NCBI RefSeq assembly: GCF_964222135.1
Contig: NZ_CAXQBR010000064.1
Span: 1-48,101, forward strand
Direction of reading: 5' to 3'
DNA length: 48,101 nt
Source: Euzebya sp.
GTDB lineage: Bacteria > Actinomycetota > Nitriliruptoria > Euzebyales > Euzebyaceae
Shown piece by piece: positions 25,440-30,753 of the stretch; positions within the stretch are counted from its first letter, which is position 1; every line of letters starts with the position of its first letter. The translations under genes and the position numbers were made by a program. The notes below the pieces were generated by a model. That model ran no database searches. It was given only the letters and a program-made list of their open reading frames with translations, and was not told where the DNA came from.

Positions 25440-25461
25440 TTGACATTGACGTCAATGTCAA
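25440..25461. promoter_or_regulatory. Perfect 22-bp palindrome before the fatty-acid operon
   Basis: The half-site TTGACATTGAC (25440-25450) is followed at once by its exact reverse complement (25451-25461). It is AT-rich against a GC-rich background and lies 42 bases before the first ATG of the operon. The left half contains a perfect TTGACA -35 hexamer. A bound repressor or MerR-type activator would therefore control promoter access directly. The binder is not encoded nearby. Confidence 0.75.
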
Positions 25462-25503
25462 TGAATGTGGGAGACCAGCACCACACATGGAGGGCACCCA
25501 CGC

Positions 25504-25860
25504 ATGTTCGACGTCGTCACCGACATCCCGCAGGACGACCAGATCGACCTCTTCGTCGGCACGGTCGCCGACCGCATGTCGATCGCCGTCGCCCCGTCGA
25601 CCGGGCGCTTCGCGCCGGCCGTCGAGGTCCCCGCGACCGTCAACCCCGGCGACCTGATCGGGCACATCACGGGCGGCAACGGCCGTGCGGACGCGGTCGT
25701 CGCACCGGTCGGCGCCACGCTGAAGGAGCTGCTGGCCCGCCCGGGTCAGCTGGTCGGGCTCGGCCAGGGACTCGCCTACCTCGAACGCGTCGCGCCGACG
25801 GGGCTCGAGGGCGCCACGGTCGACCTGACCGACCAGGACACCGCGGACGCCGTCCGCTGA
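25504..25860 (+). CDS. Biotinyl/lipoyl-domain-like protein lacking the acceptor lysine
   Basis: A 118-residue protein from ATG 25504, with GGAGGG nine bases upstream. Residues about 35-100 follow the barrel-sandwich pattern of biotin carboxyl carrier domains: VEVPATVNPGDLIGHITG, then VVAPVGATLKELLARPGQLV, then GLGQGLAYLE. In true carriers the hairpin between the halves reads AMKM, with the biotinylated Lys; here the same turn is GGNGRADA, with no lysine. The protein therefore cannot be biotinylated in the usual way. It opens the fab/accD operon, so it might be a structural partner of the carboxylase or a diverged relic. The fold call is by eye. Confidence 0.5.
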   Translation: MFDVVTDIPQDDQIDLFVGTVADRMSIAVAPSTGRFAPAVEVPATVNPGDLIGHITGGNGRADAVVAPVGATLKELLARPGQLVGLGQGLAYLERVAPTGLEGATVDLTDQDTADAVR

Positions 25861-25894: not shown

Positions 25895-26908
25895 ATGACC
25901 GGCGTGCCGGCCATGGTCCTGACCGGTGTGGGGGCCCACCTCCCGGCCCAGGTGGTCACCAACGACGACCTGTCCGAGGTGATGGACACCTCTGACGAGT
26001 GGATCCGGACCCGCACGGGGATCCGCGAGCGCCGGCGCGCCGCGCCCGGTGAGACCTCCCTCCACCTGGCGGTCGAGGCCAGCCGCGAGGCCCTCAAGGC
26101 GACCGCGGACGGCGCCACCGACGTCGACGCGGTCGTGCTGGCCACGATGACCCCGGATCGCCGCTGCCCGGCGACCGCGCCCGACGTCGCCGCGGCCCTC
26201 GGCCTCGGCCGGGTCGCCGCCTTCGACGTGGCCGCCATCTGCAGCGGCTTCGTGTACGCGGCCGCGACCGCACAGGGCCTGATCGCGGCCGGGACGGCCC
26301 GCCGGGTGCTGGTCATCGGCACCGAGGTGATGAGCGAGGTCCTGTACCCGACCGACCGCAACACCGCGGTGATCTTCGGCGACGGCGCCGGCGCCGTCGG
26401 GGTCCGCGCCGGGCCGCCCGACGAGCCCGGGGCCTTCGGTCCCTTCGACCTCGGCGCCGACGGCGAGGACAGCGACCTGATCCGGGTCGACGGCGGTGCG
26501 GGCCGCGCACCCCTCACCCCCGGCCGACCGGTGACCCGCGACGACTACCTCGTGATGGACGGCCGCGCGGTGTACCGCCGCGCCATCCCCACGATGGCCG
26601 CCTCCAGCCGTGCCGCCCTCGCGCGCCGCGGCTGGGCCGTGGACGACGTCGACGCGGTCATCGGCCACCAGGCGAACGTCCGGATCCTCGACGGCCTCTG
26701 CCACGAGCTCGGCGTCGACACGGCCCGCAGCGTCGTGAACATCGACGCCGTCGGCAACACCTCTGCGGCCTCCATCCCCATCGCGATGGCCCACGCCCAC
26801 GAGCGCGGCGCCGTCGCCGCAGGGGACAAGGTCCTGCTGACCGCCTTCGGCGGCGGCCTGACGTGGGGGTCGACGACGCTCACCTGGCCCGACCTGCCGA
26901 TCGCCTGA
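25895..26908 (+). CDS. fabH: Beta-ketoacyl-ACP synthase III
   Basis: A 337-residue condensing enzyme from ATG 25895. The KAS III triad is complete: Cys in FDVAAICSGFVYA (about residue 117), His in AVIGHQANVRI and Asn in VGNTSAASIPIA. TSDEWIRTRTGI is the family N-terminal signature. It starts fatty-acid synthesis by condensing an acyl-CoA primer with malonyl-ACP. It is the first enzyme gene of the operon, followed by acpP. Length and motifs are normal. Confidence 0.96.
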   Translation: MTGVPAMVLTGVGAHLPAQVVTNDDLSEVMDTSDEWIRTRTGIRERRRAAPGETSLHLAVEASREALKATADGATDVDAVVLATMTPDRRCPATAPDVAAALGLGRVAAFDVAAICSGFVYAAATAQGLIAAGTARRVLVIGTEVMSEVLYPTDRNTAVIFGDGAGAVGVRAGPPDEPGAFGPFDLGADGEDSDLIRVDGGAGRAPLTPGRPVTRDDYLVMDGRAVYRRAIPTMAASSRAALARRGWAVDDVDAVIGHQANVRILDGLCHELGVDTARSVVNIDAVGNTSAASIPIAMAHAHERGAVAAGDKVLLTAFGGGLTWGSTTLTWPDLPIA

Positions 26909-27011: not shown

Positions 27012-27248
27012 ATGACCGTGTACGACAAGATCGTGTCGATGCTCGACGACAAGTTCGGCATCGCCCCCGACGAGATCAGCCGCGAGGCGACCTTCGAGGC
27101 GCTCGACCTCGACTCCCTCGACCTGGTGGAGTTCTCGATGGCCGCCGAGGACGAGCTCGGCGTGAAGATCAGCGACGACGAGGCCGCCGAGCTGAAGACC
27201 GTCGGCGACGCCGTCACGCTGCTCGAGTCCAAGGGCGCCAGTGTCTGA
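27012..27248 (+). CDS. acpP: Acyl carrier protein
   Basis: A 78-residue acidic protein from ATG 27012, with AGGAGAG upstream. The phosphopantetheine serine is in ALDLDSLDLVEFSM (DSL motif, about residue 39). Helix I reads VYDKIVSMLDDKFGI. It carries growing acyl chains for FabH, FabF and FabI. The fabF start codon lies inside its end (27241), so the two are coupled. Confidence 0.96.
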   Translation: MTVYDKIVSMLDDKFGIAPDEISREATFEALDLDSLDLVEFSMAAEDELGVKISDDEAAELKTVGDAVTLLESKGASV

Positions 27249-28470
27249 GCGCACCACACCTGACGTCGCGGTCACCGGCATCGGCCTGGTGACCCCGGGT
27301 GGCGTGGGCCGGGAGGCGTCCTGGGACGCCGTCCTGCGCGGGGAGGGGACGGCCGCAACCGACCCCGCCCTCGAGGGCCTCGACGTCACCATGTCCTGCC
27401 GGATCCCCGACTTCGACGGCACCGAGCACCTCGGCCGCCGCGCGCGGAAGCTCGACCGCTTCGTGCAGCTCACGCTCGTCGCCGCCGCCGAGGCCATCGC
27501 CGACGCCGAACTCGACGCCGACACCTGGGACGGCGCCCGCGTCGGCGTGGTCATCGGCTGCGGCATGGGCGGCGCCCCGACCTGGGAGGAGCAGCACTCC
27601 GTCCTGCTCGAGCGCGGCCACAGCCGCGTGTCGCCGCACCTCATCCCCCGGATGATCCCGAACATGGCGGCGGGCCACGTCGCGATGGCGTTCAGCGCCC
27701 ACGGGCCCAACCTGGCCACGGCCACCGCGTGCGCGTCGGGTGCGACGGCCATCGGGACCGCCCTCGACATGCTGCGGCTCGGCCGCTGCGACATCGTCAT
27801 CGCCGGCGGGACCGAGGCCGGCATCACGCCGCTGTCGGTCGCCGGCTTCGCCAACATGACCGCCCTGTCGAACCGGGTGGACGACCCCGCCCGGGCGTCG
27901 CGTCCCTTCGACGTCGACCGCGACGGCTTCGTCATCGCCGAGGCCGCCGGCGTCCTGATCCTCGAGCGGGCCGCCGACGCGAGCGCCCGCGGCGTCCGCC
28001 GCTACGCCCGCCTCGCCGGCTACGGCGCCAGCGCCGACGGCCACCACGTGACCGCCCCCGACCCCCAGGGCCAGGGCGGCGAGGCCGCGGTCCGCGCCGC
28101 GCTCGCCGACGCGGACCTGTCACCAGCCGACGTCGACCACGTCAACGCCCACGGGACCTCGACACCGCTGAACGACGTCAGCGAGGCCCGGATGATCCGA
28201 CGCGTGATGCCCCACGGCCCGGCCGTCACCTCCACCAAGGGCGTCACCGGCCACGCGCTCGGCGGCGCCGGCGCGATCGAGGCGGCCTTCAGCGCCCTCG
28301 CGATCCACCGGGGCGTCATCCCGCCCACCGCCAACCTGGACAGCCAGGACCCCGAGGTCGAGGTCGACGTCGTCGCCAAGGCCCCCCGCGACGCCGCGGT
28401 CGAGGTCGCGATCAGCGACTCCTTCGGCTTCGGCGGCCAGAACGCCGTGCTCGCCCTCACGCAGGCCTGA
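27241..28470 (+). CDS. fabF: Beta-ketoacyl-ACP synthase II
   Basis: A 409-residue enzyme whose GTG 27241 overlaps the end of acpP. The KAS I/II triad is present: Cys in TATACASGATAIGTAL, His in VNAHGTSTPLND and His in STKGVTGHALGGAGAIEA. The C-terminal FGFGGQNAVL is typical. It elongates acyl-ACP with malonyl-ACP. There is no sign of truncation. Confidence 0.96.
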   Translation: MSERTTPDVAVTGIGLVTPGGVGREASWDAVLRGEGTAATDPALEGLDVTMSCRIPDFDGTEHLGRRARKLDRFVQLTLVAAAEAIADAELDADTWDGARVGVVIGCGMGGAPTWEEQHSVLLERGHSRVSPHLIPRMIPNMAAGHVAMAFSAHGPNLATATACASGATAIGTALDMLRLGRCDIVIAGGTEAGITPLSVAGFANMTALSNRVDDPARASRPFDVDRDGFVIAEAAGVLILERAADASARGVRRYARLAGYGASADGHHVTAPDPQGQGGEAAVRAALADADLSPADVDHVNAHGTSTPLNDVSEARMIRRVMPHGPAVTSTKGVTGHALGGAGAIEAAFSALAIHRGVIPPTANLDSQDPEVEVDVVAKAPRDAAVEVAISDSFGFGGQNAVLALTQA

Positions 28471-28507: not shown

Positions 28508-29953
28508 ATGAGCGCCACCAGCACCACCGCCACCCGGCCCGACGCTCGCGCACGCATCGACGCGGTCGCCGATCCCGGCTCGTTCATCGAGTTCGGCTCG
28601 ACCGCGCGGCACCAGACGACCGCCTTCGGGCTCGACGCGAAGCGGCCCGACGGCGACGGGGTCGTCACCGGCACCGTGGGCATCGACGGGCGGACCGTCG
28701 GGCTGTTCGCCCAGGACCCGACTGCCCTGGGCGGATCGCTCGGCCCCGTCCACGCCCAGAAGATCGCGATGGTGATGGATCGCGCCGCACGCGCCCGGAC
28801 CCCCGTCATCGGCCTGCTCGACAGCGGCGGGGCACGGATCCAGGAGGGCATCGCCTCCCTCGACGGCTACGGGAAGATCTTCTTCCGCAACGTGCGGGCG
28901 TCCGGCCGCATCCCGCAGATCTCGGTCGTGCTGGGGCCGTGCGCCGGCGGTGCGGTGTACTCCCCGGCTCTGACCGACATCGTGATCATGGCCCGCGACC
29001 GCGCGCACATGTTCGTCACCGGGCCGCGGGTCGTGAAGGCGGTCACGTTCGAAGACGTCAGCCTGGGCGACCTGGGCGGCGCCGACGTGCACAGCACCAC
29101 CTCGGGCGTCGCCCACCTGGTCGCCGACGACACCGACGACGCGCTGGCGCTGGCCCGCCAGGTGCTCGGCTACCTGCCGTCCTCGGCGTGGGACGACCTG
29201 CCCCTCGCCCCTCCGCGACCGCCGTCCGGCACCGCAGCGGTCCCGGACGACCACCGCCAGCCCTACGACGTGCGCGACGTGATCCGCGGGGTGGTCGACG
29301 CCGACTCGGTGCTCGAGCTGTCCGCCGGGCACGCCCGCAACCTGGTGACCGCCTTCGCCCGGATCGACGGCAGCCCCGTCGGCGTCGTCGCCAACCAGCC
29401 GTCGGTGCTCGCCGGCTGCCTCGACATCGCCGCCAGCGAGAAGGGCGCCAGGTTCGTGCGGATGTGCGACGCCTTCGGCCTCCCCCTGGTGGTGCTCGTC
29501 GACGTCCCGGGGTTCCTGCCCGGCACCGGCCAGGAGTCCTCCGGGATCATCCGCAAGGGCGCCAAGCTGCTCTACGCCTTCGCCGAGGCGACCGTCCCCC
29601 GGGTGTCGGTGATCCTGCGGAAGGCCTTCGGCGGCGCGTACATCGTCATGAACTCACGGGAGATCGGCGCCGACGCCGTCTTCAGCTGGCCAGGCGCGGA
29701 GATCGCGGTCATGGGGGCCGAGGGCGCCGTCGACGTGCTGCACCGCAAGGCCATCGCCGCCGACCCGAGCAGCCGCGCCCAGCTGGTCGAGGACTACCGC
29801 GCCCAGGCGATGCGCCCCGACCGGCCCGCGGAGATCCTCAGCGTCGACGAGATCATCGACCCGGCCGACACCCGGTCGGTGGTCGCCGGCACCCTGGCGG
29901 CGCTCCGCGGCGCGATCGAGCCGGGCTTCCGCCACGACAACCTGCCGCAGTGA
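28508..29953 (+). CDS. accD: Acyl-CoA carboxylase carboxyltransferase (beta) subunit, AccD type
   Basis: A 481-residue protein from ATG 28508 combining both carboxyltransferase halves in one chain, as in actinobacterial acetyl/propionyl-CoA carboxylases. The N-terminal half has GLLDSGGARIQEGIASLDGY and the oxyanion region LGPCAGGAVYSPALTD. The C-terminal half has VDVPGFLPGTGQE, the FGGAYIVMNS glycines and DAVFSWPGAEIAVMGAEGAV. It transfers carboxyl from biotin to acyl-CoA, giving malonyl-CoA for the operon. The biotin carboxylase/carrier chain is not in the window. Its stop overlaps the fabI start (GTGA). Confidence 0.92.
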   Translation: MSATSTTATRPDARARIDAVADPGSFIEFGSTARHQTTAFGLDAKRPDGDGVVTGTVGIDGRTVGLFAQDPTALGGSLGPVHAQKIAMVMDRAARARTPVIGLLDSGGARIQEGIASLDGYGKIFFRNVRASGRIPQISVVLGPCAGGAVYSPALTDIVIMARDRAHMFVTGPRVVKAVTFEDVSLGDLGGADVHSTTSGVAHLVADDTDDALALARQVLGYLPSSAWDDLPLAPPRPPSGTAAVPDDHRQPYDVRDVIRGVVDADSVLELSAGHARNLVTAFARIDGSPVGVVANQPSVLAGCLDIAASEKGARFVRMCDAFGLPLVVLVDVPGFLPGTGQESSGIIRKGAKLLYAFAEATVPRVSVILRKAFGGAYIVMNSREIGADAVFSWPGAEIAVMGAEGAVDVLHRKAIAADPSSRAQLVEDYRAQAMRPDRPAEILSVDEIIDPADTRSVVAGTLAALRGAIEPGFRHDNLPQ

Positions 29954-30753
29954 GCGCCGCGCAGATGCCCGACACCCCCACCGGCCTGCTGGCCGGCAAG
30001 CGTCTGCTCGTCACCGGCGTCCTGACCGAGGCCTCGATCGCGTTCGCGACCGCCCGGCTGGCCCAGTCCCAGGGCGCCGAGGTGGTGCTCACCGGCTTCG
30101 GCAAGGGCATGCGCCTGACCCAGCGCGTGGCCGGCCGCCTGCCCACCGAGCCGCCGGTGCTCGAGATGGACGCCACCGACGACGACCAGATCGCCGCCGT
30201 CGTGGACGACCTCGACGCCCGCTGGGGCGCGCTCGACGGGCTGGTCCACGCCATCGGCTTCGCGCCGGCCAGCGCGATCGGCGGGGACTTCCTCGCCACC
30301 CCGTGGGAGGACGTCGCGACCGCCGTGCGCGTCAGCACCTACTCCTTCGCCACCCTCGGCAGGGCGTTCGCCCCGCTGCTCGCGGCGGCGGGCGGCGGCT
30401 CCTACGTCGGGTTGGACTTCGACGCGACCGTCGCGTGGCCGTCCTACGACTGGATGGGCGTGGCGAAGGCCGGCCTCGAGAGCGCCTGCCGGTACACCGC
30501 CCGGGAGCTCGGCGGCCAGGGCACCCGCGTGAACCTGGTCGCCGCCGGCCCGCTCAAGACGATGGCGGCACGCCAGATCGAGGGGTTCACGTCCTTCGAG
30601 GACACCTGGGGCGACCGCGCCCCGCTCGGCTGGGACGTCACCGACGCCGAACCGGTCGGCCGGGTCGTCTGCGGCCTGCTGAGCGACTGGATGCCGGCCG
30701 TCACCGGCGAGATCGTCCACTGCGACGGCGGCGTCCACGCGATGGGGGTCTGA
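29950..30753 (+). CDS. fabI: Enoyl-ACP reductase, FabI/InhA type
   Basis: A 267-residue short-chain reductase from GTG 29950, overlapping accD. The open NAD-binding loop is GKRLLVTGVLTEASIAFATA, followed by ALDGLVHAIGFAP. The catalytic pair sits in SYDWMGVAKAGLESACRY (Tyr and Lys), nearly the InhA form (YNWMTVAKSALES). LVAAGPLKTMAA and the C-terminal HCDGGVHAMGV agree. It catalyses the last, NADH-dependent reduction of each elongation cycle. Close similarity to InhA rather than to proteobacterial FabI is an actinobacterial marker. Confidence 0.94.
   Translation: MSAAQMPDTPTGLLAGKRLLVTGVLTEASIAFATARLAQSQGAEVVLTGFGKGMRLTQRVAGRLPTEPPVLEMDATDDDQIAAVVDDLDARWGALDGLVHAIGFAPASAIGGDFLATPWEDVATAVRVSTYSFATLGRAFAPLLAAAGGGSYVGLDFDATVAWPSYDWMGVAKAGLESACRYTARELGGQGTRVNLVAAGPLKTMAARQIEGFTSFEDTWGDRAPLGWDVTDAEPVGRVVCGLLSDWMPAVTGEIVHCDGGVHAMGV

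Follow-up and report, generated by a model that had tools for sequence, protein, structure and literature searches.

A conserved palindrome in the fatty-acid synthesis promoter of Euzebya and its predicted TetR-family regulator

The window analysed here is a 48,101-nucleotide stretch from Euzebya sp. (Actinomycetota, class Nitriliruptoria; NCBI RefSeq assembly GCF_964222135.1, contig NZ_CAXQBR010000064.1, here C64). On its plus strand lies an operon that encodes a 118-aa biotinyl/lipoyl-like protein without the biotin lysine (BLP; 25504–25860), the β-ketoacyl-ACP synthase III FabH (25895–26908), an acyl carrier protein (27012–27248), a FabF-type β-ketoacyl synthase (27241–28470), a single-chain, AccD-type acyl-CoA carboxylase carboxyltransferase (28508–29953) and a FabI-type enoyl-ACP reductase (29965–30753). 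BLP, which matched no Pfam or NCBI family, resembles biotin carrier proteins weakly; its central hairpin, GHxTGGxGRADxV, has no lysine to carry biotin. It is kept as the first gene of the operon in most of the Euzebyales examined and might serve the carboxylase as a structural or regulatory subunit. When GTDB contigs were scanned at the protein level with BLP, nothing was found, while the scan with the DNA word described below did succeed.

Between the thymidine kinase stop codon and the start of the conserved small gene preceding fabH is an exact palindrome of 22 bp, TTGACATTGACGTCAATGTCAA (25440–25461, no strand assigned), read directly from the window. Its left arm, TTGACATTGAC (25440–25450), is followed with no gap by the exact reverse complement, GTCAATGTCAA (25451–25461), so the repeat is perfect, as the original prediction had it. 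It had also been called the most striking palindrome of the window, and it is indeed the longest exact one. The runner-up is a 20-bp GC-only palindrome, CGACGGCGCCGGCGCCGTCG (26380–26399), within fabH; in a genome of 74% GC, coding sequence probably gave rise to it incidentally. Length by itself is weak evidence, because 34 of 300 simulated windows (11%; dinucleotide model, GC 73.6%) held a palindrome of at least 22 bp; by this measure the element is only moderately unusual. The exact word is expected zero times in shuffles of the window, and the proposed search for further copies in the same genome found it to be single-copy in 5.06 Mb, even when three mismatches were allowed.

Conservation is far more telling. 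The word, with up to three mismatches, was present in 26 of 61 related genomes, once or twice in each and usually once, while a reversed control pattern was found in none of the 61; these genome-wide counts come from pattern searches, and weight-matrix scans covered the loci that were fetched. All Euzebyales sites lie directly upstream of BLP-fabH, of fabH alone or of BLP-carboxyltransferase (accD), and genome G006 has a site with four mismatches at the same position before the operon. Ahead of fabD-fabH, genomes of the sister family (f4) carry the site once or twice. The consensus of the site for the order is TTGACRYYGACGTCRRYGTCAA. Absence of the palindrome before orthologous operons had been named as the observation that would count against a regulatory site; the opposite was found, with the site kept across Euzebyales and before fabD-fabH of f4. 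We take conservation, not length, to settle that the palindrome is meaningful.

Comparison of the Euzebyales promoters places the palindrome precisely. An xAnnnT motif starts 0–1 base after the palindrome in all 23 promoters (other offsets gave a mean of 1.05 of 23), at a distance of 16 or 17 bp from TTGAC in every one. Since this motif follows directly and TTGAC(A) forms the 5' end, the palindrome corresponds to the −35 box together with the entire 16–17-bp spacer. The claim that it contains the −35 box is thus well founded. In the window, fixed spacing to the −10-like motif, seen in 23 of 23 relatives, assigns the −35 element TTGACA to 25440–25445 (plus strand), and comparison assigns the −10-like element GAATGT to 25463–25468 (plus strand; 17-bp spacer), a weak hexamer in which A2 and T6 are conserved. 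A bare scan with the E. coli promoter consensus detected no promoter here because this −10 is weak, so the comparative −10 is decisive. Transcription would start near 25475, ahead of a ribosome-binding site, GGAGGGC, evident in the sequence at 25489–25495 (plus strand). In genomes G014, G018 and G023 the start codon falls 6–7 nt past the −10, as in leaderless mRNA, which agrees with this start site.

The 22-mer is made up of TTGAC-N6-GTCAA in two copies that overlap, the second shifted by 6 bp. The sequence and the existence of single-unit forms elsewhere make the first 16-bp unit (25440–25455) the predicted site of one TetR dimer, and the second (25446–25461) is, from the sequence, the predicted site of another; neither has an assigned strand. 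A single unit, TTGACACGATTGTCAA, stands ahead of fabH in G004, and in G001 and G003 a perfect one, TTGACGTGGGCGTCAA, precedes the TetR gene. Two units at a 6-bp offset suggest two TetR dimers, as in CprB, which places a dimer on each of two opposite faces of its 22-bp site, and in QacR, which binds as a pair of dimers (PMC4150764). The 22-bp site here likewise comprises two overlapping inverted repeats, but the candidate regulator introduced below falls under the cut-off of the ScbR family (56 versus 150 bits) and its dimer count is a prediction. FadR of Sulfolobus acidocaldarius recognizes a 16-bp dyad as one dimer, or as two at overlapping repeats, has few genomic sites and is released by acyl-CoA (PMC6449355). 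That protein, in contrast, controls β-oxidation in an archaeon, and we claim no orthology. In f4, loci L258, L263, L273 and L276 carry an extended operator (TTGACATCGAyACTGACGTCGGTGTCAA, with 6-bp periodicity) or a doubled one before fabD, which suggests that more than two dimers may bind there.

A scan with the consensus across genomes of 85,000 species found at least 119 places, against approximately one chance match estimated. Outside the class, many of these sites adjoin TetR genes, in Nocardia, Rhodococcus, Streptomyces and Geodermatophilaceae, and have acyl-CoA carboxylase fusions or acyl-CoA synthetase-like genes as further neighbours. Sites in Betaproteobacteria and Nonomuraea adjoin MerR genes instead. 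In the Euzebya genome itself there were 40 TetR_N and 16 MerR_1 matches, none of which marks a TetR or MerR gene on C64. Control would therefore be exerted in trans, as had been proposed, and there is now a candidate for the binder: a TetR encoded on another contig, C86 (G000:C86:45971-46663, minus strand).

The C86 protein scored strongly against the profile of site-linked TetRs. Its TetR_N helix-turn-helix scores 42.9 bits (cut-off 24) and its C-terminal EthR_C domain 35.2 bits (Pfam cut-off 27), and it reached the cut-off of none of the named NCBI families, FasR and FadR included. The recognition helix, GVSHGTFYTYY, is closely similar to the GVAHGSFYTYF of site-linked TetRs and nearly invariant among the C86 orthologues, which are present in 24 of 30 genomes of the order and in many f4 genomes. 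These TetRs also have an HNH endonuclease gene as a common neighbour, which supports their orthology.

Regulator and site also travel together. The regulator together with a site at the fab promoter was found in 36 genomes, the regulator only in one, the site only in two and neither in seven; Fisher's exact test gave p = 5e-6, a value that overstates independence as the genomes are related and that counts only those where both could be judged. G015, G019 and G024, in which the regulator is present and the assembly has no fabH match, were left out. The two genomes with a site and no detected TetR are G023 (nominally 95% complete, in 510 contigs) and G060 (71% complete), while in G050 the TetR is present with its own operator, but the 1.5 kb around fabH contains no site. 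Five f4 genomes have the site ahead of the TetR gene itself; in G050 the distance to the matched TetR frame is approximately 180 bp. A unit with at most one mismatch occurs in 9 of 30 TetR promoters, compared with 0.025 expected from shuffles. Such operators were seen in f4 and in genomes of the same genus, and are absent from most genomes of the Euzebyales family f3. In the Euzebya genome an imperfect unit, CTGACACGCATGTCAG, is found at C86:46656-46673; at the same place CCTGACACGCATGTCAGG (L187:1721-1738; G000:C86:46656-46673) reads as a near-operator just upstream of the regulator's likely GTG start. A tree of 100 TetRs placed those of Geodermatophilaceae (Geodermatophilus and Blastococcus) that stand beside the same word as the clade nearest to C86, a sister placement with moderate support (94/86). 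The TetR at locus L134 showed 31% identity. The word-linked TetR genes of Nocardia, Rhodococcus, Streptomyces and Geodermatophilaceae share an adjoining 22-bp word with the Euzebya system, but instead of fabH they have acyl-CoA carboxylase fusions or acyl-CoA synthetase-like genes as targets.

A different regulator could in principle use the site. A MerR-family protein might activate from a position inside the spacer, a mode that LiuR-like proteins may use at a similar word in Betaproteobacteria. A variant of the site, TTGACGTTGACGTCAACGTCAA, adjoins MerR genes there, with a LiuR-like MerR gene on one side and a thioesterase-like gene on the other (L047, L059, L110, L150 and others); in Nonomuraea and one Streptomyces the word adjoins another MerR gene, and the Euzebya genome itself has the 16 MerR_1 matches. 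MerR promoters, however, have a 19–20-bp spacer with the dyad centre 7–8 bp from the −35 box (PMC5045206), whereas the spacer here is a normal 16–17 bp in all 23 promoters, with 5.5 bp between the −35 box and the dyad centre. The best MerR match of the genome is a 272-aa protein, unlike the 135–150-aa LiuR type, and in relatives it is TetR, not MerR, that has the site in its own promoter. The promoter spacing and the self-linked site of the TetR were the grounds for rejecting MerR control, which we regard as improbable.

We consider it just as improbable that another TetR of the same genome is the binder, even though several of the 40 TetR_N matches fit the profile of site-linked TetRs. The distribution across genomes was compared for two TetRs, those of C86 and C55. 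The latter, the next single-domain candidate, occurs in 8 of 61 genomes and is missing from nearly all that bear the site; its distribution does not track the site, and it was rejected. Only the C86 family was seen with both an operator at its own gene and the helix common to site-linked TetRs. Among the other TetRs, a 481-aa open frame at L175 (G000:C67:61531-62298) has two TetR domains in tandem, a layout that resembles Mce3R.

An element acting at the level of the transcript, either one that terminates thymidine kinase transcription or a hairpin in the leader RNA, has very little going for it. The perfect repeat could pair as RNA, but its fold energy z is only −1.67, there is no terminator-like site and no U tract, and the palindrome lies upstream of the predicted transcription start and so outside the fab mRNA. 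The same word elsewhere precedes quite different genes, a TetR gene among them. The lack of a terminator-like site and the position upstream of the start led us to reject it. That the palindrome arose by chance, as the 11% of simulated windows might have allowed, is refuted by the conservation of both sequence and position across orders and by the empty reversed control, and its likelihood is negligible.

From these comparisons, the palindrome very probably serves as operator for a dedicated EthR_C-type TetR (C86:45971-46663) that controls the BLP-fabH-acp-fabF-accD-fabI operon. What the sequences show directly is a conserved site within the promoter, its co-occurrence with the TetR and the operators at TetR genes of relatives; that the C86 TetR physically binds the palindrome is what we infer. 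Beyond the original prediction, the palindrome makes up the whole promoter spacer and comprises two overlapping 16-bp units, and its candidate regulator is identifiable by comparative analysis.

In the proposed mechanism, the C86 TetR would sit on the palindrome and control the operon. Two dimers would probably occupy the overlapping units jointly and exclude RNA polymerase. Since the palindrome takes up both −35 box and spacer, a bound protein would compete directly with the polymerase, which makes repression, rather than activation, the natural reading. Binding would be released or altered by a lipid-derived ligand, for which a long-chain acyl-CoA or acyl-ACP is the most likely candidate, and fatty-acid synthesis would in this way be tied to demand. 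The C86 TetR probably also controls its own gene, by way of the single-unit operator.

The C86 regulator would operate in the manner of the known TetR regulators of lipid genes, as a new member of that group. FasR of Mycobacterium tuberculosis, a TetR of fatty-acid synthesis, binds inverted repeats in the promoter and responds to acyl-CoA (PMC7382501). The two systems share an actinobacterial TetR for fatty-acid synthesis genes and an inverted repeat in the operon promoter, although for the C86 protein binding is predicted. The C86 protein, however, fails the FasR family model (28 versus 330 bits). FasR activates the FAS I gene (fas-acpS), whereas the Euzebya operon is of FAS II type and its site coincides with −35 box and spacer, an arrangement that suggests repression. 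The best solved-structure match of the regulator family is EthR of M. tuberculosis, in keeping with the EthR_C domain found above cut-off. EthR controls a monooxygenase gene, not fatty-acid synthesis.

A literature search, which had most subscription journals outside its reach, found no paper on this regulator or operator or on the control of fatty-acid synthesis in Euzebyales, and such control in deep-branching Actinomycetota of this kind appears unstudied. For most of a class, regulator, operator, exact promoter layout and target operon can now be named from sequence alone. Should binding hold, the conserved pair would lend itself directly to use as a lipid-responsive sensor, since the operator takes the place of the promoter's −35 box and spacer. 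A broader reading is that TTGACRYYGACGTCRRYGTCAA is an operator for lipid or acyl-CoA genes in several phyla, used by TetR proteins in Actinomycetota but, in Betaproteobacteria and Nonomuraea, by MerR proteins. Two unrelated families would then have come to use it convergently, with the fab regulator found throughout Nitriliruptoria as one branch. We offer this tentatively and think it rather unlikely.

One genome of the same genus, G002 (locus L252), keeps the thymidine kinase–fabH neighbourhood without BLP, the palindrome and the TetR, an apparent joint loss of all three.
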